64,000 nucleotides of DNA, from assembly GCA_016790075.1 (NCBI GenBank), contig JAEUPP010000039.1, forward strand, positions 434,001 through 498,000, written 5' to 3'. The DNA comes from Rhodanobacteraceae bacterium. GTDB lineage: Bacteria > Pseudomonadota > Gammaproteobacteria > Xanthomonadales > Rhodanobacteraceae. Positions 6,109 through 57,146 of this stretch are shown here, in pieces. Within the stretch, counting starts at the first letter, position 1, and every line of letters begins with the position of its first letter. A model generated the notes under the pieces. The model was not told where the DNA came from. It saw only the letters and a list, made by a program, of their open reading frames with translations, and did no database searches. Made by a program: the position numbers and the translations under genes.

Positions 6109-6894
6109 TTATTGGCCGATGAACGACTGACGACGCGAGTCAAACTCGTCGAAGTCAACGAAATCGGTGGCGGTGAAGTTGGTGCGCCACGCGTTGTTCG
6201 CACCGCCCAGGCCAAGCACGACCTGATCAACACCACCCCAGGCGCCGTTGGCGAGGCCGGTCACGGTGCCAGTCGGGGCGCCATCGGTCGTGGCCGTGGC
6301 CGCATCCGTGACCCAGTAACGGAGCTGGCCATTTGTGCCGGCACCCGCAGCGAAGGTCAGATCAATTTCGACACGGTTAGCACCGGCCTGGTTCGGCAGC
6401 GGAACGTCGAGCTGACGGTACTGACCGGCCGCCGCTGTGTCACCAATCAGGAAGCGCAGCTGGCGGGCCGAACCACTGCCCAACAGGAAGATCTGCAGCG
6501 CATTCTGCGTGCCACCCGGAGCAGCCGTCGGACCGACAACATTGAACGTCAACGCCGTGCGGTTGAGCTGGGTCAGCGCGATGGCGGTGCTGATCAGGTA
6601 ACGGGCGCGATAACGCTGTTCTGCATTCGGTGTCTGATCAACTGCACCGGCTTTCGCAGATGCCGAGGAATTCTGATTCAACGCCGTACGCATCTTGCAA
6701 GCTGTGCTATTCAGGCCCGGCGTCGCGACACTCAGAGCGGCCTGAGTCTGCAACGCTGCCGACCAAACACCCGCCGGAGTCTGGTTCTGGCCGATCGTTG
6801 TCGGGCACTGCGCCATGCTGGCACCCGCAAACGACATACCCGCCAGACCCAACACCGCCAGCGACAGTGTCTTCATCATGACATTGGCTTTCAT
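6109..6894 (-). CDS. Exported 261-aa protein of unknown function
   Basis: I do not recognise the family. The ATG is preceded by GGGAGA 6-7 nt away. The protein starts with a signal peptide (hydrophobic core LSLAVLGLAGMSFAGAS, cleavage near SMAQ). The mature protein is rich in Ala, Thr, Asn and Gly with few charges and alternating hydrophobic residues (for example TALTFNVVGP, ALQIFLLGSGS, ELRYW-like QLRYWVTDA), suggesting an extracellular beta-sandwich. It has two cysteines. It is the first gene of the minus-strand group and has a good promoter 78-107 bp upstream. Confidence 0.75.
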   Translation of the reverse strand: MKANVMMKTLSLAVLGLAGMSFAGASMAQCPTTIGQNQTPAGVWSAALQTQAALSVATPGLNSTACKMRTALNQNSSASAKAGAVDQTPNAEQRYRARYLISTAIALTQLNRTALTFNVVGPTAAPGGTQNALQIFLLGSGSARQLRFLIGDTAAAGQYRQLDVPLPNQAGANRVEIDLTFAAGAGTNGQLRYWVTDAATATTDGAPTGTVTGLANGAWGGVDQVVLGLGGANNAWRTNFTATDFVDFDEFDSRRQSFIGQ

Positions 6895-6971
6895 TTAATT
6901 TCTCCCAAGTTGGATCGGGCGAGAGCTAGCTCCCTGCCCACGGATAAGTTCATGGGGCCCGACAGAAAAGG

Positions 6972-7001
6972 AGTGTAATCAGCACAATCCAACGCCGTCA
7001 A
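6972..7001 (-). promoter_or_regulatory. Probable sigma-70 promoter for the exported-protein genes
   Basis: On the minus strand, TTGACG (6996-7001) is followed by an 18-bp spacer and TACACT (6972-6977). These match the -35 consensus at 5 of 6 and the -10 at 4 of 6. The predicted 5' leader to the ATG at 6894 is about 70 nt. Confidence 0.6.
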
Positions 7002-7135
7002 CGCTTTAGCGGCGTTCTTGTGCGCAATTTCACCAGATCCGGCGAACCGATTCGGCACCCGCTACGGGTACTCGGGAGCTAGTAACGCAGGCGAGGCTGC
7101 TGAGCGGACACTTCAGCCGAAAAATTCTTCTCGCG

Positions 7136-7165
7136 TTGACGCCGGGTGAGTCCGGTTGGGACAAT
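7136..7165 (+). promoter_or_regulatory. Probable sigma-70 promoter for the glycosyltransferase operon
   Basis: TTGACG (7136-7141), 18-bp spacer, GACAAT (7160-7165). Its position makes a translation start at 7156 impossible and supports the GTG start at 7192. Confidence 0.55.
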
Positions 7166-7191
7166 CGGCTTTTCGCGCAAGCCGGAGTCCC

Positions 7192-7920
7192 GTGTCAAAT
7201 CAACAGATTGGCTCTCGTCTCTGCCTTGCCGCGATTCCCGCCCGCAACGAGCAGGATACCGTCGGGGAAGTGGTGCGTGGCGTAGTCGCAGCGCTGGGCT
7301 GCTCCGTGATTGTCATCAATGACGCCAGCACGGACGATACAGCGGCGGTTGCGGCGGCGGCCGGCGCAACCGTCATAACGTTGTCGTTCCAGCTTGGCGC
7401 CTGGGGCGCTATCCAGGCAGGCATGCGCTACGCACTGCGTAACGGCTACGAGCGCGTCATCACTCTCGATGCCGACGGCCAGCACCACCCGGACCAGCTC
7501 CCCCTGCTCCTGCGCGCACACCTGGACAGCGCGGCCGACGTCACGATTGGTACCTGCCCGCAGCGGCTTAGCGCCGCCAAACGCCTGGCCTGGGCGTACT
7601 TCCGTCTGATAACGGGACTACAGGTCACCGATTTCACCTCGGGCCTGCGCATCTACGGACGCCGCGCGATCCGCTCGCTGGCTTCGCGTGAGGCCAGTCT
7701 CATTGATTACCAGGACATAGGCGTGCTGATGCTGCTGCGACACAAGGCGCTACGAATTGCCGAGGCACCGACCGTCATGTCGGCACGCCGCAGCGGTGGT
7801 TCGCGCATTTTCTCGTCCTGGTTCACGGTTGCGCGCTATATGATCGCAACTACTGTTCTGAGCATTGCCCGTGTTGGCGCCCACCGACGCCGCGGCCGCG
7901 CCGAAGTGGCAGCGCCATGA
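7192..7920 (+). CDS. Family 2 glycosyltransferase (dolichol-phosphate-sugar synthase-like)
   Basis: A GT-A fold transferase likely moving a sugar from a nucleotide donor to a lipid phosphate at the inner face of the membrane. The GTG at 7192 has CGGAG 6 nt upstream and lies just after a promoter; a TTG at 7156 is an unlikely alternative. The protein is 242 aa. Key features are AAIPARNEQDTV at the N-terminus, VINDASTDDT (nucleotide binding), DADGQHHPDQ with the DxD metal site, and the acceptor-loop motif DFTSGLRIYG. The stop codon overlaps the start of the DUF2304 gene (ATGA), a pairing often seen for this GT2 subfamily. It probably works with the GT4 enzyme downstream in envelope glycan synthesis. 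Confidence 0.9.
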   Translation: MSNQQIGSRLCLAAIPARNEQDTVGEVVRGVVAALGCSVIVINDASTDDTAAVAAAAGATVITLSFQLGAWGAIQAGMRYALRNGYERVITLDADGQHHPDQLPLLLRAHLDSAADVTIGTCPQRLSAAKRLAWAYFRLITGLQVTDFTSGLRIYGRRAIRSLASREASLIDYQDIGVLMLLRHKALRIAEAPTVMSARRSGGSRIFSSWFTVARYMIATTVLSIARVGAHRRRGRAEVAAP

Positions 7921-45114: not shown

Positions 45115-45238
45115 AGTGCTTGTCACCGTGCTTGCGCATTCGATCGTCCGGGCGCGCAGTTACCGCAACGCACATCCGCTGCAAAATCGCCCCATGCAAG
45201 CCTGATCTATGCTCGGCGCTACCATCAGGAGTCCACTC

Positions 45239-46567
45239 ATGCCCGCCAGCCCGCTTCTTGCCCTGCCCCTGTTTCTCGCCGGCTTCGCAACAATGGCCGG
45301 GGCCGCAAGCTGGAAGGAGCAGCAGGTGGCGGCCGCCGAAAAATCAGAAACCATACTGCGCCAGGCCGAGAAGGTGCGCGGGCTGCTGGCGCAATACCAG
45401 ATACTGCGCGCCGCCTATACCGCGGACGACAGCAAGGCGTTCCGCCTGATCTTCGGACAGTATCTGAGCTGGCATCAGTCCTATCTTGGACTGCACGACG
45501 AGGCCATGCAGTCGTTCTCGATCCAGCAAAGCGCCGACAAGCAGGATGCGCCATCACCACTGGAAGGAGATACATGGCGCATGGCACCGGCCGCGGACAC
45601 CATCGTGCGCCTGGCCAAGGAACAGCGCGCCGTGTTCTTCAACGAGGCACACAACGCCGCGATCACGCGCTCGCTCACGCTGGAAATGCTGCCGCGTCTG
45701 CGCGAGCTGGGCTACACGCACTTCGCAGCCGAAACCTTGTACGAGACCGATACGGCGCTGGCGAGCCGCGGCTATCCGAACGAAGCAAGCGGTTTCTACA
45801 CACAGGAACCGGTCTACGCAGAAATGGTGCGCACCGCGCTGAAGCTCGGCTTCACTGTCATCGCTTATGAAGCCACGTCCGAAGCCGTCGGCGATGCGCG
45901 CGAAAAGGAACAGGCACGCAACCTGTACAACCGTGTATTCAAGAACAACCCGGATGCGCGCGTCGTGGTCAACGCCGGGTATGCACATATCGTCGAGTCC
46001 GGGAAATACCTCGGTGGCGCGAGCATGGCTCAACATTTCAGCAAGATCGCGCATATCAATCCGCTGACCATAGAGCAGACCATGCTGATTCCGCATACCG
46101 AGGTCAGCCAGGACCATCCCTACTACCGCGCCTTGCTGGCCAGAGAGACCCCCAAGAGCGCCGTCGCCTTCGTTGACAAGGACGGCCAGCCCTGGAGCTT
46201 GCGCGCCGGACAGTACGACATCAGCATCGCGCTGCCACCGTACACACACGACAACGGACGTCAAAGCTGGCTCGCACTCAACGGCATGCGCCGTACCTAT
46301 ACCGTTGATGGCGAAATCTGCCGTTCGGTCATGCCCTGCCTCGTCGAAGCCCGTTACGCCAGCGAAGGTGACGACGCTATCCCGGCCGACCGCATCGTGA
46401 TCGGCCTGCAGGATTCCTCGCTGACCGGCAGTGAACGCAAGTTCCGCAAGGTCAACGACCTGCGCACCGATCTCTATCTGCGCCCCGGCCGCTACCGCGT
46501 GCGGGCAAGCGGAGCGGACAATCAAATCGTCAACACCCAGATCATCACCGTCGGTTCAAGCGAGTGA
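45239..46567 (+). CDS. Exported ChaN/erythromycin-esterase-like protein
   Basis: The ATG at 45239 has AGGAG 9 nt upstream and opens a signal peptide (to about residue 21). The 442-aa product has AVFFNEAHNAAITRSL followed by LGYTHFAAETLYE and DARVVVNAGYAHI, the Glu/His pattern shared by the ChaN haem-binding and EreA esterase superfamily (also TraB/Tiki). The last 150 residues form a second beta-rich domain. Substrate unknown; I see no basis for drug resistance. The stop overlaps a GTG at 46564 of the RidA frame. Confidence 0.78.
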   Translation: MPASPLLALPLFLAGFATMAGAASWKEQQVAAAEKSETILRQAEKVRGLLAQYQILRAAYTADDSKAFRLIFGQYLSWHQSYLGLHDEAMQSFSIQQSADKQDAPSPLEGDTWRMAPAADTIVRLAKEQRAVFFNEAHNAAITRSLTLEMLPRLRELGYTHFAAETLYETDTALASRGYPNEASGFYTQEPVYAEMVRTALKLGFTVIAYEATSEAVGDAREKEQARNLYNRVFKNNPDARVVVNAGYAHIVESGKYLGGASMAQHFSKIAHINPLTIEQTMLIPHTEVSQDHPYYRALLARETPKSAVAFVDKDGQPWSLRAGQYDISIALPPYTHDNGRQSWLALNGMRRTYTVDGEICRSVMPCLVEARYASEGDDAIPADRIVIGLQDSSLTGSERKFRKVNDLRTDLYLRPGRYRVRASGADNQIVNTQIITVGSSE

Positions 46568-47286: not shown

Positions 47287-49323
47287 TTAACTTTCGAAAT
47301 TGCTGACGAAAATCACGTCACTCGGTGCCGGTGCAATCACCGTCGCCGCATACGACGCCGGCGTTCCGGCCTGTGCGACACGCAACTCGATATCGGCAGC
47401 AGCCGGGGCGAGATTCGCAATGAACGAGAAACGATACAGCGTGCCCCAGTTGAGCGGATTCAGCACCGCCGGCACGCCCGGCGCCGGAGCAGGATTGACC
47501 GGAGCAGTCCAGGTCAGGCGGCCGCCACTGTTGCTCGAGGTCCAGTTGTTAGCCGTGTCGAGATCGCCGTCGCTGAATTCGATACCACTCACGGTCGCCC
47601 CCGCGGGCAACGGCAGGCTGAAGCTGTCATAGCCGTAGTTGTGGATTACGCGGAAGCGCTGCGCTGGAGTGGCATCGTCGTCATAACTGGGCGTACCTGA
47701 GGTTACACCGCGCGCGAAGTCGACATTCATGACGGCGTAGTCGTAGCGCCACTGTCCACCGCCAAGATCGCGCGCCTTGACCGCAACGCGCGTATGGCCT
47801 TCATTATTGGCAATTTCTACATTGCGCTGATTTGGATCGGCAGTGCCTGGCGTAACCCACTGATTGATGGCCGGTCCCAGCCGCGTCGGCGTACCGTTGG
47901 AAATGCTCCAGGGGCCAGCACCGGTAAAGCTGAAGGTGACCGGGCGCGAGGCCATGGTGTTATAGACGTTGACGTCGTCACGCACGATGTACCAGGACTC
48001 GAAGCGGAAGGTGCCGCTCGCTAGCTGCGATTCGCGCACAATCAGGCGCTGGCTGTAGTTGGTATTGCCCGAGCTGTCTTCCAACAGGTCGCAATTGGGA
48101 TCGTAGATCGAACCGCAACGGCCCCAGGCGTCGCCATTGGGAATGATCTCGCTGCGTGGACCGAGGTCGCTATTGCTGTCGTTGTTGCTGGTCGCATAGG
48201 TATCGCTGCAGGAGCGGCCGAGAATATGCGAGTTGCTGCCACCGCTGCCTGGGCTTGTGGAACAACCGACATTGACCGTCAGGAATGCGTGCTTGACGCC
48301 AGAACGCCCTACCTGGTCGATGCGCCCTTCGCTGTCGAAGCGGTACAGGTTCCAGATCAGGTTCGGATGCTGATCATTATTGTAGGGGGCGTAGGTGCCG
48401 GTGAATTTCTCAAACCAGGCTACATCAGCCGAGTACAGCGCCGAGCTCGTGCCCAGCGGATCGCCGGCGACCGTAGCCTGCGCCGTCCCATTGTTGACAT
48501 TGTTGCGAAGCGTGGAATTCGGTGTGAATACGGCATAGCCGTCGGTAGCGCCAGCCGGGCCATCGCAGCTGCAGGTACCCGCACAGTTCAGCGCCCTGGT
48601 ACAACGCGAGTACTGCGCGTCGAAGGCAAGCATGAATACGTCGGCCTGGTACTTGGCGCCGGGCACACCGGGTACATCGGTGTTTGGCCAGACTGGAGCA
48701 CCGCCGCCCAGCACGATGAAATTGCCATCCTGAGCGGTGACGTCGAGCTGCATGCGCATTTGCGCGATAGCCCAGCCATCTACCCAGGGCTTGCCGATAC
48801 GGCGCGCAAGGTCCGGATGAATACGCAGATCCATGGTACGTACCTGGAGCTGCCGTCCATCGGCAGTCACGGCGTACATAAGCTTGTCCATGAAGAACCA
48901 GGCGCGGCCGTTGGCATCGACGAGTTCCAGCGTGAGCGCATCATTGCTCCGCGGCTGCAAGGTCGCGTCGACCAGCGACAGTTCCCCGTCCGGCGTCTTG
49001 AGCCGGAAACCACCGCGCAAAGCCAGGCGGCCACCGACAAAATGATCGAAGTTCAACGCGTTGACCGCGAACTGCAGGCCGCCCTGCGAACGCAGACCGA
49101 CGGCGACGAAGCCGCGGCGGTCCGGATCACCAACGCCGTTGCGCTGATCCAGAGCCATGCCGAGGTCGGCCAGTAGATCTTCGTTCCAGATAAAGCCGAG
49201 GTCGCCGCCATGCGCGGTCCAGACCTGCGGCTGAGCAGGCTGACTCGGCGACTCAGCCACTGCGCTGCTGGCCGCCACCCCCAGGAGCAGTACGAAAACA
49301 CCGCGAACTAACGTCATGACCAT
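47287..49323 (-). CDS. Large exported protein, three-paralogue family, member A (678 aa)
   Basis: Family not recognised. Signal peptide (about residues 5-23). The N-terminal segment GGDLGFIWNEDLLADLGM is shared with member B. All three members share NDQHPNLIWNLYR, a K-H-A-F element, LGPRSEIIP, WGRCGSIYDPNCD and FESWYIVRDDVNVYNTM. Cysteines occur in pairs (SRCTRALNC, CSCDGP, GRSCSDTY), suggesting disulfides or metal binding. The C-terminus is I-F-V-S-N-F-E-S, like tails I recall in exported proteins of this order. The gene follows member B by 93 bp with a hairpin between them. Confidence 0.78.
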   Translation of the reverse strand: MVMTLVRGVFVLLLGVAASSAVAESPSQPAQPQVWTAHGGDLGFIWNEDLLADLGMALDQRNGVGDPDRRGFVAVGLRSQGGLQFAVNALNFDHFVGGRLALRGGFRLKTPDGELSLVDATLQPRSNDALTLELVDANGRAWFFMDKLMYAVTADGRQLQVRTMDLRIHPDLARRIGKPWVDGWAIAQMRMQLDVTAQDGNFIVLGGGAPVWPNTDVPGVPGAKYQADVFMLAFDAQYSRCTRALNCAGTCSCDGPAGATDGYAVFTPNSTLRNNVNNGTAQATVAGDPLGTSSALYSADVAWFEKFTGTYAPYNNDQHPNLIWNLYRFDSEGRIDQVGRSGVKHAFLTVNVGCSTSPGSGGSNSHILGRSCSDTYATSNNDSNSDLGPRSEIIPNGDAWGRCGSIYDPNCDLLEDSSGNTNYSQRLIVRESQLASGTFRFESWYIVRDDVNVYNTMASRPVTFSFTGAGPWSISNGTPTRLGPAINQWVTPGTADPNQRNVEIANNEGHTRVAVKARDLGGGQWRYDYAVMNVDFARGVTSGTPSYDDDATPAQRFRVIHNYGYDSFSLPLPAGATVSGIEFSDGDLDTANNWTSSNSGGRLTWTAPVNPAPAPGVPAVLNPLNWGTLYRFSFIANLAPAAADIELRVAQAGTPASYAATVIAPAPSDVIFVSNFES

Positions 49324-49365
49324 GATCAGAATTCCCTGAATAAGGCGATAGGACTATTGCCAGTA

Positions 49366-49398
49366 GCAACCTGCGGCACTGTCCAAGCCGCAGGTTGC
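49366..49398 (-). terminator. Hairpin between paralogues B and A
   Basis: A perfect 11-bp stem GCAACCTGCGG/CCGCAGGTTGC (49366-49376, 49388-49398) with an 11-nt loop. It lies just after member B and 43 bp before member A. There is no T-run, so it may only attenuate transcription or protect RNA ends. Confidence 0.45.
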
Positions 49399-49415
49399 CT
49401 ACCTTGGCTGGTTGC

Positions 49416-51491
49416 TTAGTGCCTGGAGGCCGACTCGAAGTTGTCCACGAAGATCAGATCGACAGCCGGCGTGGCCGGCGCCAGCACCGAAGCCGTATAG
49501 GAGGCTGGTGTACCGCTCTGCGCGACATGCAGATCAACATCGGCTGCCGTTGGCGCCTGGTTGGCGACAAACGAGAAGCGGAACATCGTGCCCCAGTTAA
49601 GTGGATTGAGAACGGCAGGGGTATTGGCCGGTGGCGTCGGATTCACCGGCGCCGTCCAGGTGACGCTGCCGCCGGAAGTCGTCGCGGTCCAGTCGTTGGC
49701 CGCATCGAGCTCGCCATCGTTGAATTCCAGCGAGCTTACCGTGACGCCGGCCGGCAGCGGCACGCTGAAGCGGTCGAAGCCGAAATTGTGGATTACGCGG
49801 AAGCGCTGGGCCGGATCGGAGTCGTCACTGTACTTGCTGGTCCCCTGCGTCACGGCACGCGCAAAGTCGAGGTTCATCACCGCGTAGTCATAACGCCAGG
49901 CACCGTTGCCGAGGTCGACCACGTTGACGGCGACGCGGGTATGACCCTCCGCGCTCGCGACCTCAACGTTTTTCTGGTTCGGGTTGGCGGTGGTCGGGCT
50001 GACCCAGCGGTTGATGACCGGGCCCAGCAGCTGCGGCGTGCCATTGCTCATGGACCAGCTCGCGCCATAGCTGAAGGTCACGGGCCGCGAGGCCATGGTG
50101 TTGTAGATATTGATGTCCTCGCGAACGATGTACCACGACTCCATGAAGTAGGTACCGCCAGCCGTTAGCTGCGACTCGCGCGTGATCATGCGCTGGCTGT
50201 AGTTGGTATTGCCGCTGGGATCGGCGCTCAAGTCGCAATTGGGATCGAAGATCGAGCCGCAACGCCCCCACTCTCCCCGGGCCGGGATGATTTCGTTGCG
50301 CGGGCCCAGATCGCCATTGCTGTCGTTGTTGCCGGTACCGTAGGTATCGGAACAGGCCAGACCGAGGATGGCGCCGGTGCTGCCGCCGCTGCCAGGACCA
50401 GAATTGTCACAGCCAGTATTCGTGGTGACGAATGCGTGCTTCACACCGGAACGGCCTATCTGTTCGATGCGGTTGTTGGCGTCGATGCGGTAGAGGTTCC
50501 AGATCAGATTCGGGTGCTGGTCGTTGTCATACGGCGCGAAGGTGCCGCTGAACTTGCGGTACCAGGCTACGTCCGCCGAATACAACGCACTGCTGGTGCC
50601 GTTGGGATCGCCCGCAACGGTAGGATTGGCCGTGCCGTTGTTGACGTTGTTGCGCAGCGTTGAAGACGGGGTAAATACCGCATAGCCGTTGGTCGCGGTA
50701 TTCGGGCCGTCGCAGGTACAACCCGTCGTGCAACCGAGACTGTTCGTACAGCGCGAGTACTGCCCCTGGAAGCTCAGCATGAACACGTCGGCCTGGAAGC
50801 GCTGCTCCGGGGTTACGCCCGGAACCACCGTGCCAGGCCATACCGGAGCCCCCTGCACGATATCGATGTAGTTGCCGTTCTGCGCCACGACCTCCAGACG
50901 CATGCGCATCTGTGCGACCACCCAGTCAGTGATTTCCGGCTTGCCCAGACGCCGCGCAAGATCAGCATGCAGGCGCAGGTCCATGGTCTGCACGTCGACC
51001 GTGCGGCCTTCGTCGGCGATGGCATACATCAGGCGATCAAGGTAAAACAGCTTGTTGCCGGCCGCGTCGACCACATCCAGCATCTGTGAATTCGTACCAC
51101 GCGGAACCACAACCGCGTCGACCAGTGAAAGCTCCCCAGCCGGCGAATTCAGGCTGAAACCGCCGCGCAGGGCAAGCCGCCCGCCGACAAAGTGATCGAA
51201 ATTGGTATCCGTGACGGCGAAGCTGAGCCCGCCCTGGTCACGCAGCGGCACGGCGACGAATTCACGGCTGTCAGGATCAGAAACACCGGTCGCGCTCTTG
51301 AGCGTGATGCCGTAGTCGCGCAGCAGATCCACATTCCAGATAAAACCGAGGTCGCCGCCCAGCGCCGTCCAGGTTTGCTTTACGACGGGCTGCGGCTGCG
51401 GCTGTGGTCCGGACGCGGCCATTGCCAGCGGTGCGCTGAAAGCCGAGGCCAACGCCAGGGCCAGTACGAAACGATGCGAATGCAGGTTCAT
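49416..51491 (-). CDS. Large exported protein, three-paralogue family, member B (691 aa)
   Basis: Close paralogue of member A over its full length. The ATG at 51491 has GAGG 5-6 nt upstream and gives a signal peptide (MNLHSHRF, hydrophobic core to about residue 27); the frame is open for 370 bp upstream but without this signal. Shared elements include GGDLGFIWNVDLLRDYGI, NDQHPNLIWNLYR, LGPRNEIIP, WGRCGSIFDPNCD and SWYIVREDINIYNTM. Cysteine pairs (SRCTNSLGC, TGCTCDGP) match. It ends with D-L-I-F-V-D-N-F-E-S plus ASRH. It follows the pentahaem cytochrome gene by 226 bp. Function unknown. Confidence 0.78.
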   Translation of the reverse strand: MNLHSHRFVLALALASAFSAPLAMAASGPQPQPQPVVKQTWTALGGDLGFIWNVDLLRDYGITLKSATGVSDPDSREFVAVPLRDQGGLSFAVTDTNFDHFVGGRLALRGGFSLNSPAGELSLVDAVVVPRGTNSQMLDVVDAAGNKLFYLDRLMYAIADEGRTVDVQTMDLRLHADLARRLGKPEITDWVVAQMRMRLEVVAQNGNYIDIVQGAPVWPGTVVPGVTPEQRFQADVFMLSFQGQYSRCTNSLGCTTGCTCDGPNTATNGYAVFTPSSTLRNNVNNGTANPTVAGDPNGTSSALYSADVAWYRKFSGTFAPYDNDQHPNLIWNLYRIDANNRIEQIGRSGVKHAFVTTNTGCDNSGPGSGGSTGAILGLACSDTYGTGNNDSNGDLGPRNEIIPARGEWGRCGSIFDPNCDLSADPSGNTNYSQRMITRESQLTAGGTYFMESWYIVREDINIYNTMASRPVTFSYGASWSMSNGTPQLLGPVINRWVSPTTANPNQKNVEVASAEGHTRVAVNVVDLGNGAWRYDYAVMNLDFARAVTQGTSKYSDDSDPAQRFRVIHNFGFDRFSVPLPAGVTVSSLEFNDGELDAANDWTATTSGGSVTWTAPVNPTPPANTPAVLNPLNWGTMFRFSFVANQAPTAADVDLHVAQSGTPASYTASVLAPATPAVDLIFVDNFESASRH

Positions 51492-51717
51492 TGCCGCCTC
51501 ATGAAAAAGTGGATAACCGCGCATTTCCCTGCAGGTGATTCCCTGGCATGACACGTAAGGCTCCCAGCCAAGCGCGACCGCCATGATGTACCGAAAGACC
51601 AGCATGGCCGCGGTGCCCCCCCCTTGGAACAGCCCCGACTCAAGCCGCCGCCCTGACATAACGAGCGGCCTTGCCTCAAGGCCACGCTGCTTAGCGCGAC
51701 CATGCCTACTGTTGAAC

Positions 51718-53622
51718 TCAGTTGCCCGCCAGCACCGTGCTCGTTGCCGCCGTCTCCGGCGGCGACTTGCCAAAGGCCGGGTCGTTCCAGAGCGAGTACA
51801 GAAATTCACCACGCGACTGCGACTGCGGGCCGACATTGAACGGACGCCCAGGGCCGCCCGCACACAACGTATTCTCCGCCGGGATTGCCGGCGCGGTCAC
51901 AGCCTGACGGCGCAGGAACTCGATGTAATCCTTGCTCGCGATCTGATGGCGCAGATTCGCCTCGATACGCACCGGCAAGCTGGTGCCTGCCGGCAATACG
52001 AAGGTGTAGAGCGTGTCGTCATAGTTGACCAACGTACCCGAACCCGGCGCCGTCTCCGGATAGCTGTAATTGACGGGACGCACTTCATCCCCGTTCGGAT
52101 CAGCCGCGGTACGCGGACGCAGTCCCAGCGGCGGAATGCGGTTGTCCTTGGCAATGCAATTGTTCAGTACGAAGTGGAAGTGCTTCTGGCCACCCGACTC
52201 GGTGCGGCAGACACCCGGCGGCGTCGCATCCCAGATGCCCTGCAGGACTTCGTAGATCTTGATCTGGCTGTCTTCGGTCAACACACCGGTGGCTGCGTCG
52301 TAGGCACCGCTTTCACTGATCAGGCTGTTGTTGGCCGCAAATGCCTTGACGTTGAGCCACATGCGGCGGCCCTCGGAATAACCGGTAGGCAGCTTGTGGC
52401 CGCTGAGGTTGGTCGTACGCACACGCACCGTAACACTGCCTGGCGTACCCGCGGTCGGCGCGGTATAGGCGGTAACCGTCGAGGTCAGCGAGGCACTGGA
52501 CTGCAGCATGGCCCGCGCCCAGGCTATGGTGCGATCGTAGTCTGCGGGGTCACCGGAACCGGTCGCTGCGTAAAGGGTCTTGATGATCGCCGGTATCCAG
52601 GTATTCGCCCCGACGAAGGTGTGTACGGGCAGATTTCCCGTACGCGATCCCTCTTCGTTCAGGGTGCAGGCCTGCGCCAGCGGATCGTTCGAGGTCGGCA
52701 TGTGGCAGGTCTGGCACGGTTGGGATTTGGCCAGCGCCGGCTGCCCCGGGGCGACGGACTGCAGACCATCGCGGAAGATCAGATCGGCGAACAGGCTGCG
52801 CTGCCATTCGCTGTAGGTACGCTCGATGGGGAAAGGGCGCGTGGTCGCCGTACCGTTTTCGAGAATCAGGGTCTTGAGCGGGCCCTGATTGGTGTCCGGC
52901 GTCGACACATCGTGGCAGCTGCCGCATAGCTCCGAGCTCTGGTGCAGGGGCGAGTACTGCCAGCCATGTGGCGGCTCCAGCAGACGATTCACATAGGAAT
53001 ACGGTCCGCGCCGGCAGGGGCCGCCATATTCATCGCCTTCGGGGGTGATGCAGCTGCCCGCATCGTCGACCCAGATATTGGAGTTGCCGATCTCGAACGG
53101 CTGGCCCTGCGGCCCGGCCGGCATCATACGATGGCAGTAGTGGCAGCCTATGCCGCCGTAGTCGTTACCGAAACCATCGGTGTCGTTGTAGTCGCCGGTC
53201 AGCAGGCACCCCGAAGCACCGCTGGCGGGATTCAGATTGCCGCCGCCGGCCTTGACCACACGACCGCCCAGCCAACCCGCAGGGGTGTGGCAGCGCAAGC
53301 AATAATCGCCAGCGCCGGGATAGTCCTTGTTCGCGACATCGAGTGCGGCCCAGAACAACGGATCGCGAGTGGCATTCGCCATCATCGAGCCGGCCCAGGT
53401 GCTATGCGGCAGGAACTGGTTGCCGGGCGAAGAGAAGCCGCGATGGCAGCCCAGACAGTTACTGGTTGGTTCCAGTGCCGTCTGCAGCAGCGGCTGCGTA
53501 CCATGCGGAGTGAGATCCAGCGCCATGGCGGGCGCGACAGCAAAGATCATGGCTGACGCCAATACCAACCAAGACAGCCGCGTCCACGACGCCGGCCGCC
53601 TCATGCACACCAACCGCCCCAT
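51718..53622 (-). CDS. Exported pentahaem c-type cytochrome
   Basis: A 634-aa electron-transfer protein. The ATG at 53622 has GGGGGA upstream and gives a signal peptide (to about residue 34, PAMA). Five CxxCH haem sites are at residues 56-60, 108-112, 160-164, 233-237 and 303-307. After the haem region a beta-rich domain contains NLSGHKLPTGYSEGRRMWL, a segment also found in other multihaem cytochromes. Additional histidines (PHS, LHQ, HMP) could be distal ligands. It lies between the genes for members C and B of the exported paralogue family. A periplasmic or surface redox role is expected; the partner is unknown. Confidence 0.88.
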   Translation of the reverse strand: MGRLVCMRRPASWTRLSWLVLASAMIFAVAPAMALDLTPHGTQPLLQTALEPTSNCLGCHRGFSSPGNQFLPHSTWAGSMMANATRDPLFWAALDVANKDYPGAGDYCLRCHTPAGWLGGRVVKAGGGNLNPASGASGCLLTGDYNDTDGFGNDYGGIGCHYCHRMMPAGPQGQPFEIGNSNIWVDDAGSCITPEGDEYGGPCRRGPYSYVNRLLEPPHGWQYSPLHQSSELCGSCHDVSTPDTNQGPLKTLILENGTATTRPFPIERTYSEWQRSLFADLIFRDGLQSVAPGQPALAKSQPCQTCHMPTSNDPLAQACTLNEEGSRTGNLPVHTFVGANTWIPAIIKTLYAATGSGDPADYDRTIAWARAMLQSSASLTSTVTAYTAPTAGTPGSVTVRVRTTNLSGHKLPTGYSEGRRMWLNVKAFAANNSLISESGAYDAATGVLTEDSQIKIYEVLQGIWDATPPGVCRTESGGQKHFHFVLNNCIAKDNRIPPLGLRPRTAADPNGDEVRPVNYSYPETAPGSGTLVNYDDTLYTFVLPAGTSLPVRIEANLRHQIASKDYIEFLRRQAVTAPAIPAENTLCAGGPGRPFNVGPQSQSRGEFLYSLWNDPAFGKSPPETAATSTVLAGN

Positions 53623-53714
53623 GCTTCGTCCCCCTGCCCCTAAACATACCCAGACGCACGCAACCATGGAAAATAGCACGGCTTATGCCAATGAGGCATG
53701 GGCCTTAGTAGTAT

Positions 53715-55661
53715 TTATTCAGCTCTTGCTCCCACCGTGCTGCTTAGATCGGCCGCGTTGGCGGCGGGCCGCGGCCGCGAGACCGGCTCCCAGTCGCGCA
53801 GCGGAGCAAAGGTTGCCGCATGCCAGATGGACTCCGCGGCACCAAGGTGTGCCTTGCTGTCGCGCGGCGCGAAATCGCTGACGAAGCCGAAACGGAAAGT
53901 CAGGCCCCAGCCCAGGGGCGTCGAGCTACCCCGCGTCCAGGCCACGCGGGTGTTGTCCCGCGCGACGCTCCAGCTCGTGCCGGTATCAGCGACAGCGGCG
54001 AAATCCTGCGCCTCGATCAACGCCTGCGGATCGGTAAATACGGCGAAACGCTCCACGCCAAGGTTCTGCTCTACACGCAGATTCGGCTCCTGGCCGCTAG
54101 TCCTGGTCAGGGTCAGATCGAGATTGAACACCATGTAGGCATAGGCATAACGCCCGTCGCCGCGGCGGGTCACACGCGTCGCCAGCAGTGCCCGGCCTTG
54201 GGGTGTAGAGACCAGGCTGCGGCGCTGCCAGGCGCCGGCCGGGGCCATGTCCAACCAGCGATCCAGCATGCTGCCGCGGCGAAAATCGTTGACCTCGAAA
54301 CGCCAGACATAGGCGTTCGGGTCCAGCCCCTGCCCGCGCACCTTCTGCGGCTCGATCTGCATCAGACCGATGTTGTTCCAGGGATTGGCATCGTCACGCA
54401 CCACATACCAGTACTCGAGAAACCAGCGCGCGCCCACATGCCGCGACGGCAGCAGCTCGCTTTCGCGCACGGCCAGGCGCTTGGCACGGTTGTAGGCGTC
54501 GTCAGGCAGCAGACCTTCGTCGGAATCACGCAGGCCGTCACAATCTTTGTCATAAAGCGACCCGCAGCGTCCCCATTGCGCTGTGTACGGGATGATCTCG
54601 CTGCGCGGAGCCAGACCGCTGGGATAGTCGTTGCTGAATCCGCCGTACGTATCTTCGCATCCCGGAAACAGCACATGACCTTGCGCACAATCGCAAACGG
54701 CGTTGATGGTATGAAACGCGTGTTTGGCTGCTGACGCAGCGATCTGCACGAGCTGGCCGTCCGCATCGAGCCGATACAGATTCCAGACCAGGAAAGGGTG
54801 CTGGTCGTTGGCGTAGGGCGGCGCCGGCGGCGAGAACTTCGCATACCAGGCAACCGCGGCGCTGCCGGCATTGCGCAGGCTCGCATCCGGAGCCAGCACC
54901 ACGAGTCCGTCCTCGCTATCGGCGCTGCAGGCACGCGAATGACCGCCCAATCCGTCACTTCTTCCACAACGATAAAAATTAACACCGTCGGGCTGACGCT
55001 CCTCCCAGTTGAGCGCCAGCCGCAGCATCTCGACATCTGCCTGCGCCGCCACCGACGGCCACTGCAGCGGACAGGCACCCGCCGCCTTGGACGCCATGTC
55101 CGCACTCGCTGCAGCAAGCCCCTCGGTCTGAACGCCGCCGACAAGCACGCCCGTCCACTGCGGACGCCCTAGCCGCTGTGCCAGCACTTCGCTGACGCGC
55201 ATATCCATGTGCTGCAGCGACAGCGCGCCGTCTTCGGCGACATAGGCATGTGCATGATCGAGCTGGAACCAGACCTCGCCCGCCGCATCGGCGAGCTCCA
55301 GCCCCATGCGCGCACTACCGCGGCGGCGCAATTGAAATCCCGCCAGATCGAGTCGTTCGCCGCTGCTCAGGCGCAGCCGCGGCCCGCCCTGATGCCGTAC
55401 CGCTCCGGCCAGCAGCGCACCGAAACGGCCGGGCCTGCCGCTCCAGCGCAGCGAGGCCGCGTCTACCGCCGCGTAGCGTTGCTCGCGGTAGTCGGCACGC
55501 TCGCGCTGCGCAACGCAACCGCCGCACTCGTCAAGCACCTCGATACCCAGCGGAGCCAGCGCCCCACGATTGAACAGCAGCGTGGTCTCGGCGGCCTGCG
55601 CCGCACCTGCGATGCAGCAGATCGCGCACAGTGCGGCAGCACGCAGGTAGCTCGCTTTCAC
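53715..55661 (-). CDS. Large exported protein, three-paralogue family, divergent member C (648 aa)
   Basis: Divergent paralogue of members A and B. Signal peptide to about residue 23 (AAQA). It keeps [13 protein letters not shown], a K-H-A-F element, a DTYGG segment, [29 protein letters not shown] and [18 protein letters not shown]. The [12 protein letters not shown] stretch resembles a calcium-binding loop (inference). Extra cysteines near residue 46 (ECGGCVAQR) are specific to C. It lacks the I-F-V-x-N-F-E-S tail. Its ATG overlaps the dapE stop (ATGA), so it is co-translated with a lysine-synthesis gene. The cytochrome gene begins 92 bp downstream. Confidence 0.72.
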
Positions 55662-56788
55662 GACAGCAGCAACCGCTCGGCGATCGCAAGATACAGCGCC
55701 GGCAGGCGTTCGAGATCCGCCACCGCAACATGCTCGTCAAGCTTGTGTATGGTCGCGTTGACCGGCCCGACTTCGACCACATCCGCACCCAGCGGGGCGA
55801 TAAAGCGGCCATCGGAGGTGCCGCCCCCCGTACTCGCCAGCGCCGTGACCTGAAGCGTGTCGGCGATGGCAGCGATCGTGTGCTCGCGCAGCGGACCAGC
55901 ATGAGTGAGGAATGGTTCGCCCGAGAGATCCCAGCGCAGCTCGATATCGAGTCCGTGCCGGCGCAGCACAGCCTCGGTGCGCTCACGCAGCGACGCAGCA
56001 CTGCTTTCGGTACAGAAGCGGAAGTTGAACGTTGCCTGCAATGTTCCAGGAATCACATTGTTCGCCCCGGTGCCGGAGCTGATATTGGACACCTGGAACG
56101 AGGTAGGCGGGAAATCCGCATTGCCTTGGTCCCAGCAGGTGGCCACGAGTTCGGCCAGAGCCGGGGCAAAGGCATGAATAGGATTCAGCGCTTTCTCTGG
56201 ATACGCCACATGCCCTTGCACGCCACGCACACTCAGATAACCCGACAATGATCCGCGCCGACCAACACGGATCACATCGCCAAGCCGTGTGCTGGAGGAC
56301 GGTTCGCCAACGACACACCAGTCGATACGCTCGCCACGCGCGCGGAAGGTTTCGGCAACACGGCGCACCCCGTCCCGCGCGGCGCCCTCCTCGTCGCTGG
56401 TCAGCAGCAGCGCGATACGCCCTGGGTGACCGGGGTACTGCGCGACGAATTGCTCCAGCGCGAGCACGAAGGCCGCGACCGAACCTTTCATGTCGGCCGC
56501 ACCTCGCCCGTAGAGCAGGCCGTCGCGCACTACCGGCACGAACGGCGGACTGCTCCAGTGCTCGGTTGGGCCACTGGGCACGACATCCGTATGCCCGAGG
56601 AAAACAAGTACCGGACCTGCGCCGCCGTGGCTGGCCCAGAGATTGTCGACCTCGCCATAGCGCAGCTGCTCGACCGTAAAACCGGCATGGCGCAGCCGGT
56701 CGCCGATCAGCGCCTGACAACCGGCATCGTCCGGCGTCACCGACACACGCCGGATTAGGTCGCAGGTAAGTTCGATAATCGCCGACAT
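55658..56788 (-). CDS. dapE: Succinyl-diaminopimelate desuccinylase
   Basis: Hydrolyses N-succinyl-LL-diaminopimelate for lysine and peptidoglycan. The ATG at 56788 lies 1 bp after the preceding stop, giving 376 aa. Metal ligands and catalytic residues are visible in [26 protein letters not shown] (Glu-Glu) and [15 protein letters not shown]. It is downstream of dapD and the ArsC-like gene, and overlaps member C by 4 bp. Confidence 0.96.
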
Positions 56789-56789
56789 G

Positions 56790-57146
56790 TCAGCTCGCAA
56801 AACGCTGTGCAAACAGCTTGTCGTTGAAGCCGACGCTGACCTGGCCGTCCTCGGTCACCAGCACCGGCCGGCGCACGATGGCGGGGTGTTCCTTGATCAG
56901 CAGCGTCCATTCCGGCGTGCTCTCGGGCGCCTTGCGCGCCTCGGGCAGGCTGCGCCAGGTTGTCGAGCTGCGATTCACAAGCTTGTCCCAGCCGCCGAGT
57001 GCAAGCGCCCAGGCCTTCAGAGTGTCCGCGGGTACGCGCTGCTCGCGGTAATCGACGAACTCATAGGCAACCTGGTGCCGCTGCAGCCAGTTGCGCGCCT
57101 TCTTGCAGGTATCGCACTTTTCCAATCCGTACACTTTTGCATTCAT
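56790..57146 (-). CDS. ArsC/Spx family thioredoxin-fold protein (YffB-like)
   Basis: A 118-aa protein with the redox motif C-D-T-C in [16 protein letters not shown], followed by [10 protein letters not shown] and [10 protein letters not shown]. It is not necessarily an arsenate reductase; members of this branch (YffB) bind glutathione, and their role is unknown. The ATG at 57146 lies 1 bp after the dapD stop, and the stop 1 bp before dapE. The place next to dapE is widely conserved in gammaproteobacteria. Confidence 0.92.

Follow-up and report, generated by a model that had tools for sequence, protein, structure and literature searches.

In the 64,000-nucleotide stretch of a Rhodanobacteraceae genome analyzed here (contig JAEUPP010000039.1, positions 434,001 to 498,000; hereafter the window), four neighboring minus-strand genes encode three paralogous large proteins, designated A, B, and C, together with a pentahaem c-type cytochrome. 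They constitute the form that a cassette of the Tahibacter/Dokdonella group of Rhodanobacteraceae takes in the window strain, and the cassette is a real, lineage-level unit. The family of A, B, and C is given the working name PAR. In addition, a C-terminal tail of the form IFx[DN]GFE is shared among exported-looking proteins of this group, a feature not seen in an earlier note on the same DNA. These components have tentatively been combined into a proposed exported redox module, which is set out below after the evidence on its parts.

The gene order on the minus strand is M20 peptidase, C, cytochrome, B, and A, the first of these being a neighbor and not part of the cassette. PAR C (53715..55661) has 648 residues, the cytochrome (51718..53679) 653, B (49416..51491) 691, and A (47287..49323) 678; the open frame of B extends beyond its gene start, to 51863. 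The placement of a five-CxxCH gene between C and B, with all genes on one strand, is thus as the earlier note had described it. Its description of three paralogues sharing four motifs in a common order also holds, with each motif occurring once and in the same order in A (starting at residues 316, 387, 400, and 444), B (323, 395, 408, and 453), and C (285, 350, 363, and 418). In global alignments, A and B are 68.7% identical over 674 pairs, A and C 35.3% over 586, and B and C 35.8% over 587, with alignment scores 93–360 standard deviations above those of 50 shuffles; A, B, and C are true paralogues, far beyond chance. The core block spans residues 316–450 of A (NDQHP...WYIVRDD; 47974..48378), 323–459 of B (50115..50525), and 285–424 of C (54390..54809), all on the minus strand and with coordinates computed from residue numbers. 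To the eye, the N-termini—that of A included—resemble Sec signal peptides, and PAR and the cytochrome are presumably exported.

The cytochrome has CxxCH sites at residues 75, 127, 179, 252, and 322, followed by a GHKLPTG stretch, and all five sites are invariant in an alignment of the window protein with 18 homologues. Its nearest named likeness is to ExtKL (NF040886). Of 19 cassette cytochromes, 16 match this model with E values of at most 0.1, the best being 4.6e-9; in the window cytochrome, the match covers the GHKLPTG stretch. The window protein differs from ExtKL in having five haems and in scoring 14.8 bits against a cut-off of 250 bits.

The linkage between PAR and the cytochrome was followed through 117 genomes of the window's family. 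PAR occurs in 24 of these, the cytochrome in 25 (24 with strong matches), and both in 23; PAR stands alone in G037, and the cytochrome in G088 (a strong match) and G008 (a weak one). In 22 of the 23 genomes having both, the two lie within 4 kb of each other, and in the remaining genome, G079, they fall on two different contigs, 9.4 and 4.2 kb long. A homologue survey of 36 loci found the cytochrome at 19 of 24 Lysobacterales loci, at none of 11 betaproteobacterial loci, and not at the single Vicinamibacteria locus, a 3.9-kb contig; because several of the loci lie in genomes also among the 117, the two sets of counts are not independent. Three of the five Lysobacterales loci lacking the cytochrome (L036, L042, and L063) are on short contigs or near a contig end. 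Over the best segment, B shares 82% and 81% identity with its closest homologues in the named collection, which come from Tahibacter caeni and from an assembly of metagenomic origin titled Lysobacteraceae bacterium; these homologues suggest a position of the window genome near Tahibacter. The window genome itself (5.6 Mb, rated 95.65% complete) has one cytochrome match only. Elsewhere in this genome lies a PAR gene fragment of approximately 80 query residues with one stop (G000:C15:189870-190094), which is probably a relic.

The PAR family is not named in the databases searched, in agreement with the earlier note, which had recognized no family for the paralogues. Profile scans with Pfam and NCBIfam named neither A, B, nor C, and PAR showed no similarity beyond chance to PDB sequences (best E 0.061). 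The 42 aligned PAR rows gave only scattered Pfam matches with E of 0.0069 or more; those to LtfC, WzyE, DUF5122, bacHORMA_2, and others were rejected as chance, since their E values are in this range and they differ from member to member. In the same alignment (L026, L027, L028, and L061:11293-13716 were dropped, and L054, L058, and L068 never entered), 42 columns are invariant, many of them polar, and the core follows the pattern DQHP...WNxYR...KH...CxDxY...PRxE...WxRCxS...YxxRxD. There are several copies per genome, with up to seven matches in G057. At L162:5409-7558 (genome G016), a PAR gene next to a dapE-like gene is broken into two open frames that overlap, and looks like a decayed copy. 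No match for PAR B or for the homologue in genome G124, described below, was found in the plasmid collection. The available text of the open-licence PMC literature yielded nothing about PAR, the cassette, or the tail, a scope that does not show absence from print.

Structure prediction, proposed in the earlier note for the paralogues, was carried out for B alone, and gave a mostly beta model (AlphaFold2 model m82a810228c53; mean predicted local distance difference test score, pLDDT, 87.6) without a convincing full-length PDB relative. The top PDB row, an integrin, was set aside as uninformative (E 1.2e-4, probability 0.69, template modelling score, TM-score, 0.13), as was the top viral row (probability 0.08). 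The best-supported partial fold match is to the HtaA haem-binding domain of Corynebacterium (probability 1.00, E about 1e-3); for the HtaA C-terminal domain 6jsc_A, Foldseek gave E 2.6e-3 and a TM-score of 0.53 by target and 0.16 by query. This partial resemblance in the predicted fold, together with the haem protein encoded next door, would fit a PAR that binds or hands on haem and serves the haem supply or repair of the cytochrome. Such a role is nevertheless improbable: HtaA is not among the eight Pfam families matched by any of the 42 PAR members at E up to 1, and the betaproteobacterial PARs have no haem neighbor. Moreover, HtaA binds haem through conserved Tyr/His ligands, whereas neither residue occurs in the invariant or nearly invariant columns of PAR residues 40–230, the part presumed from its length to be HtaA-like.

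In the proposed redox module, the oxidizing component would be a copper amine-oxidase-like protein, whose gene joins the cassette at 12 of the 24 Lysobacterales loci. The gene was found in 14 of the 117 family genomes, all 14 of which also have PAR and the cytochrome. The protein is exported-looking and of about 400 residues or more—examples of approximately 400 residues are encoded at L035:6645-7865, L041:4772-5968 and 6676-7854, and L057:6267-7817, and another, of Tahibacter aquaticus, is encoded at L037:6636-7859—and in the inspected loci its gene is often preceded by one for a small protein of 204–233 residues that is lipoprotein-like by eye. Some of the small copper amine-oxidase-like proteins carry an extra C-terminal immunoglobulin-like (Ig-like) stretch. 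All 50 listed Foldseek matches of a model of this protein are copper amine oxidases (E 9e-12 to 7e-10, best 9.2e-12; probability 1.00; TM-score by query 0.45–0.51). The partner thus has the predicted fold of a copper amine oxidase catalytic domain and, in its likeness to the copper amine oxidases that use topaquinone (TPQ), also an alignable TPQ tyrosine and two alignable copper histidines. In 16 copper amine-oxidase-like sequences, W200, Y201, Y203, H233, H235, and H236 are invariant; H311, present in at least 90% of the rows, and an invariant YRDWKD are candidates for the third copper histidine and the catalytic aspartate. PAR itself is outside the copper amine oxidase family: a profile comparison with the alignment of the copper amine-oxidase-like proteins matched the tail only, and no amine oxidase is among the 50 PDB fold matches listed for PAR, so this relationship was rejected.

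A second pairing was found in genome G124, from another class of proteobacteria. A protein there matches the PAR core at E 2e-32, and its gene lies directly between those for a one-CxxCH protein and a tyrosinase (PF00264, E 9.5e-27), giving the row probable cytochrome c, PAR-core protein, and tyrosinase at L159:7065-10162. No other observation argues as strongly for a biochemical basis of the linkage as this pairing with a copper oxidase of another kind, although it is a single case.

PAR A and B end in degenerate forms of the tail, DVIFVSNFES in A (47290..47319) and DLIFVDNFESASRH in B (49419..49460), both on the minus strand with coordinates computed from the stop codon; C, a member of a divergent subgroup, has no tail. 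With a relaxed motif followed by 0–19 residues to the protein end, the tail was found at the Lysobacterales loci and in the window on 26 of 39 PAR genes, 14 of 16 copper amine-oxidase-like genes, and 4 of 22 cytochrome genes, as against 1 of 202 other called genes and none with the reversed motif; this count omits L068, and because genes were called by a simple GC-position rule, some starts or frames are incorrect and spurious genes may inflate the class of other genes. None of the 11 betaproteobacterial PARs carries it. One cytochrome, at L056:5498-7612, has a tail-like insert, VFADAFDGVRAPT, directly before the conserved C-terminal GKSPPE rather than at its very end.

A strict form of the motif, searched as a DNA pattern for IFx[DN]GFE to which neither A nor B conforms, occurs 6–56 times in 27 of the 117 family genomes, once in one (G081, at L143), and never in 89; the reversed pattern was not found in any of the 117. 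All 24 PAR genomes are among the 27. Across 398 genomes of the phylum, more than two strict matches were found only in the three members of the Tahibacter/Dokdonella-centered group, and 36 other genomes have one or two; in some genomes the reversed pattern likewise gives one or two. Positions were read in 63 loci (L089-L095, L122, L123, L130-L142, and L144-L156 among the tail loci), which are part of all matches. Of 35 loci from tail-bearing genomes, 32 have the motif no more than 15 residues before the stop, as do 3 of 28 from other genomes; the exceptions among the former are L092 and L156, where it directly follows a signal-peptide-like start, and L146, where it lies between domains. The frames at L132 and L141 look out of frame upstream. 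The tail codons vary while the peptide is kept. Ten tail-bearing proteins scanned with Pfam and NCBIfam are mutually unrelated, comprising a Reprolysin-type M12B peptidase, an M14 carboxypeptidase, and BNR/sortilin, Ig-like, and delta-60 repeat families, with matches below cut-off to an ExeM/NucH-like nuclease and to parts of M36 peptidase families whose names refer to a sorting signal. In none of these ten does a best-stretch match cover the tail.

The tail is comparable with the known C-terminal sorting tags PEP-CTERM, GlyGly-CTERM, and MYXO-CTERM (PMC1569441, PMC3237569, PMC11980579). MYXO-CTERM is described as a motif followed by a hydrophobic helix and basic residues. Such a tripartite organization is a general feature of the PEP-CTERM-like signals. 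As with these tags, a short C-terminal motif is common to many unrelated exported-looking proteins. Some tailed proteins also match, below cut-offs, myxosortase- or rhombosortase-dependent M36 peptidases and choice-of-anchor domains, with the match stopping before the tag. Unlike these tripartite signals, the tail has neither a hydrophobic segment nor a basic end. It is probably an undescribed C-terminal sorting or anchoring tag. PAR itself is unlikely to be the sorting machine of the tail, since three genomes (G075, G088, and G100) have the tail and no PAR match; PAR is thus more likely a passenger.

In the proposed exported redox module, held at somewhat less than even confidence, the PAR core would form a ligand-, metal-, or substrate-binding site of an exported, mostly beta protein, and PAR would hold or present a substrate. 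Oxidation of this substrate would be supplied by the copper amine-oxidase-like protein in many relatives and by the tyrosinase in G124, and the pentahaem cytochrome would act as an exported electron relay that takes the electrons and carries them away. The tail, present on A and B, on the majority of copper amine-oxidase-like proteins, and on a minority of the cytochromes, would bring the parts into one place. In favor of this module are the co-occurrence and close spacing of PAR and the cytochrome, the finding of the copper enzyme only in genomes with both, the amine oxidase fold matches and TynA alignment of that enzyme, the gene row of G124, the invariant and often polar PAR columns, and the concentration of the tail on cassette genes. 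The copper amine-oxidase-like gene was not found in the window genome, though the same query matched relatives; there, the module would be limited to the cytochrome and PAR, and some role of PAR must be independent of that enzyme.

Several observations weigh against this module. The Fisher test behind the co-occurrence of PAR and the cytochrome in the family (p 4e-22, with the weak G008 match left out) ignores the relatedness of the 117 genomes. Furthermore, 15 of 59 PAR matches lie more than 10 kb from the cytochrome or on another contig, and 13 of 43 cytochrome matches have no PAR within 5 kb; four of these 13 are strong, being at contig edges or in G088, and nine are more distant homologues. 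The eleven betaproteobacterial PAR genomes (eight titled Rubrivivax, one Hydrogenophaga, and two 'Beta proteobacterium') gave no match in a cytochrome search in which two control genomes did, and at their loci no called gene has even one CxxCH. The genome of L066 has no cytochrome match, and that of L065 only a weaker homologue on another contig. No copper-enzyme match was found in 10 of the 24 PAR genomes of the family, that of the window included. The partners of PAR therefore look dispensable. Only 4 of the 22 cytochromes counted above have the tail. The fold of PAR has no convincing full-length match among PDB or viral structures, so that any active site in PAR is putative. In G124, the one-CxxCH protein is a cytochrome c by Pfam matches of E 0.003 and 0.016, both below cut-offs, and the PAR-core protein is the only such match among 385 genomes of its class.

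The assignment of the copper partner is weakened on further counts. The model that gave the amine oxidase matches is of moderate confidence (pLDDT 63), a PDB sequence search with the protein found no amine oxidase, and the best score against PF01179 is 17.3 bits where the gathering score is 27. An hhalign comparison with Escherichia coli TynA places NYDY (Y496 by count) on WYQY (Y201) and THQH on THWHH, TynA residues that we take to be the TPQ precursor and copper ligands, but this alignment is weak (E 0.007, probability 5.5%), and H311 and YRDWKD lie outside the aligned stretch. The residue before the TPQ-site tyrosine is Trp and not Asn, giving WYxY in place of NYDY, and TynA has 757 residues as against about 400 in the partner. 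The weak TynA alignment and the below-cut-off cytochrome of G124 slightly lower the confidence in the mechanism.

The betaproteobacterial PARs speak for an alternative in which PAR acts on its own as an exported enzyme or binding protein. In this reading, the cytochrome and copper enzyme are neighbors with some other purpose, held together because the chromosomal site gathers exported proteins. Among the 42 aligned rows, which include ten of the eleven betaproteobacterial loci, the core residues are conserved in these PARs, and PAR presumably has some function where the cytochrome is absent. Solitary PAR copies in family genomes, some beside a subtilase gene, point the same way. In the PAR tree, however, the ten betaproteobacterial PARs included form one clade (100/99) nested among Dokdonella-type PARs, with L044 and L040 as the nearest rows (root drawn at the midpoint), which suggests that PAR alone was probably transferred once and reduces the weight of this counter-case. 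The near-perfect co-occurrence in the 117 genomes at distances of 0–4 kb, the restriction of the copper enzyme to genomes with both PAR and the cytochrome, and the recurrence in G124 of a PAR core flanked by the genes for a probable cytochrome and a copper oxidase also argue against a free-standing PAR, which is possible but rather unlikely. With respect to the earlier note, its linked extracytoplasmic system stands as a cassette, with substrate, scaffold, and redox partner as candidate roles for the paralogues, and an obligate pair is not supported, given the eleven betaproteobacterial genomes without a cytochrome match. Homologues lacking a multihaem neighbor, which that note had named, if widespread, as grounds for abandoning the link, thus exist in the betaproteobacteria, and no characterized family was matched.

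The copper partners would also fit an oxidative curing of a surface matrix, in which PAR would be the surface substrate, with its Lys or Tyr residues oxidized and cross-linked and the cytochrome removing the electrons. Known relatives of copper amine oxidases modify Lys and those of tyrosinases Tyr, and the several PAR copies per genome would also fit. The strongly conserved polar core, however, points to binding or catalysis more than to a bulk substrate, the betaproteobacterial PARs have no called CxxCH gene nearby, and the window genome yielded no copper amine-oxidase-like gene; matrix curing is accordingly quite unlikely.

Beyond the redox module itself, a bolder and more doubtful generalization makes PAR the defining component of a modular surface redox system not previously described. 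Its core would serve exported copper oxidases, TPQ amine-oxidase-like in Rhodanobacteraceae and a tyrosinase in G124, as a dedicated partner, with c-type cytochromes as an electron sink; in Rhodanobacteraceae, the parts would be joined by a new, non-tripartite tag, IFx[DN]GFE, recognized by an undescribed machinery. If true, this would add a database-unnamed protein family to extracytoplasmic electron transfer, connect, at the cell surface, multihaem cytochromes with copper oxidases, and provide an easily testable C-terminal tag. The contrast in the strict tag among the 117 genomes (27 versus 1 versus 89) means that the reader of the tag could be sought by phylogenetic profiling.

With respect to the surroundings of the cassette, promoter and terminator signals in the window were no better than shuffle level. 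An exported-looking protein of 452 residues is encoded on the opposite strand at 45209-46567, adjoining the cassette; its match of ChaN/Tiki type is weak, at E 0.042, and falls below cut-off. At the other end, the gene for the M20 peptidase (55658..56812, minus strand), dapE-like by reading, overlaps C by 4 bases. A gene similar to it by eye precedes PAR or the cytochrome in L160, L162, and L163.

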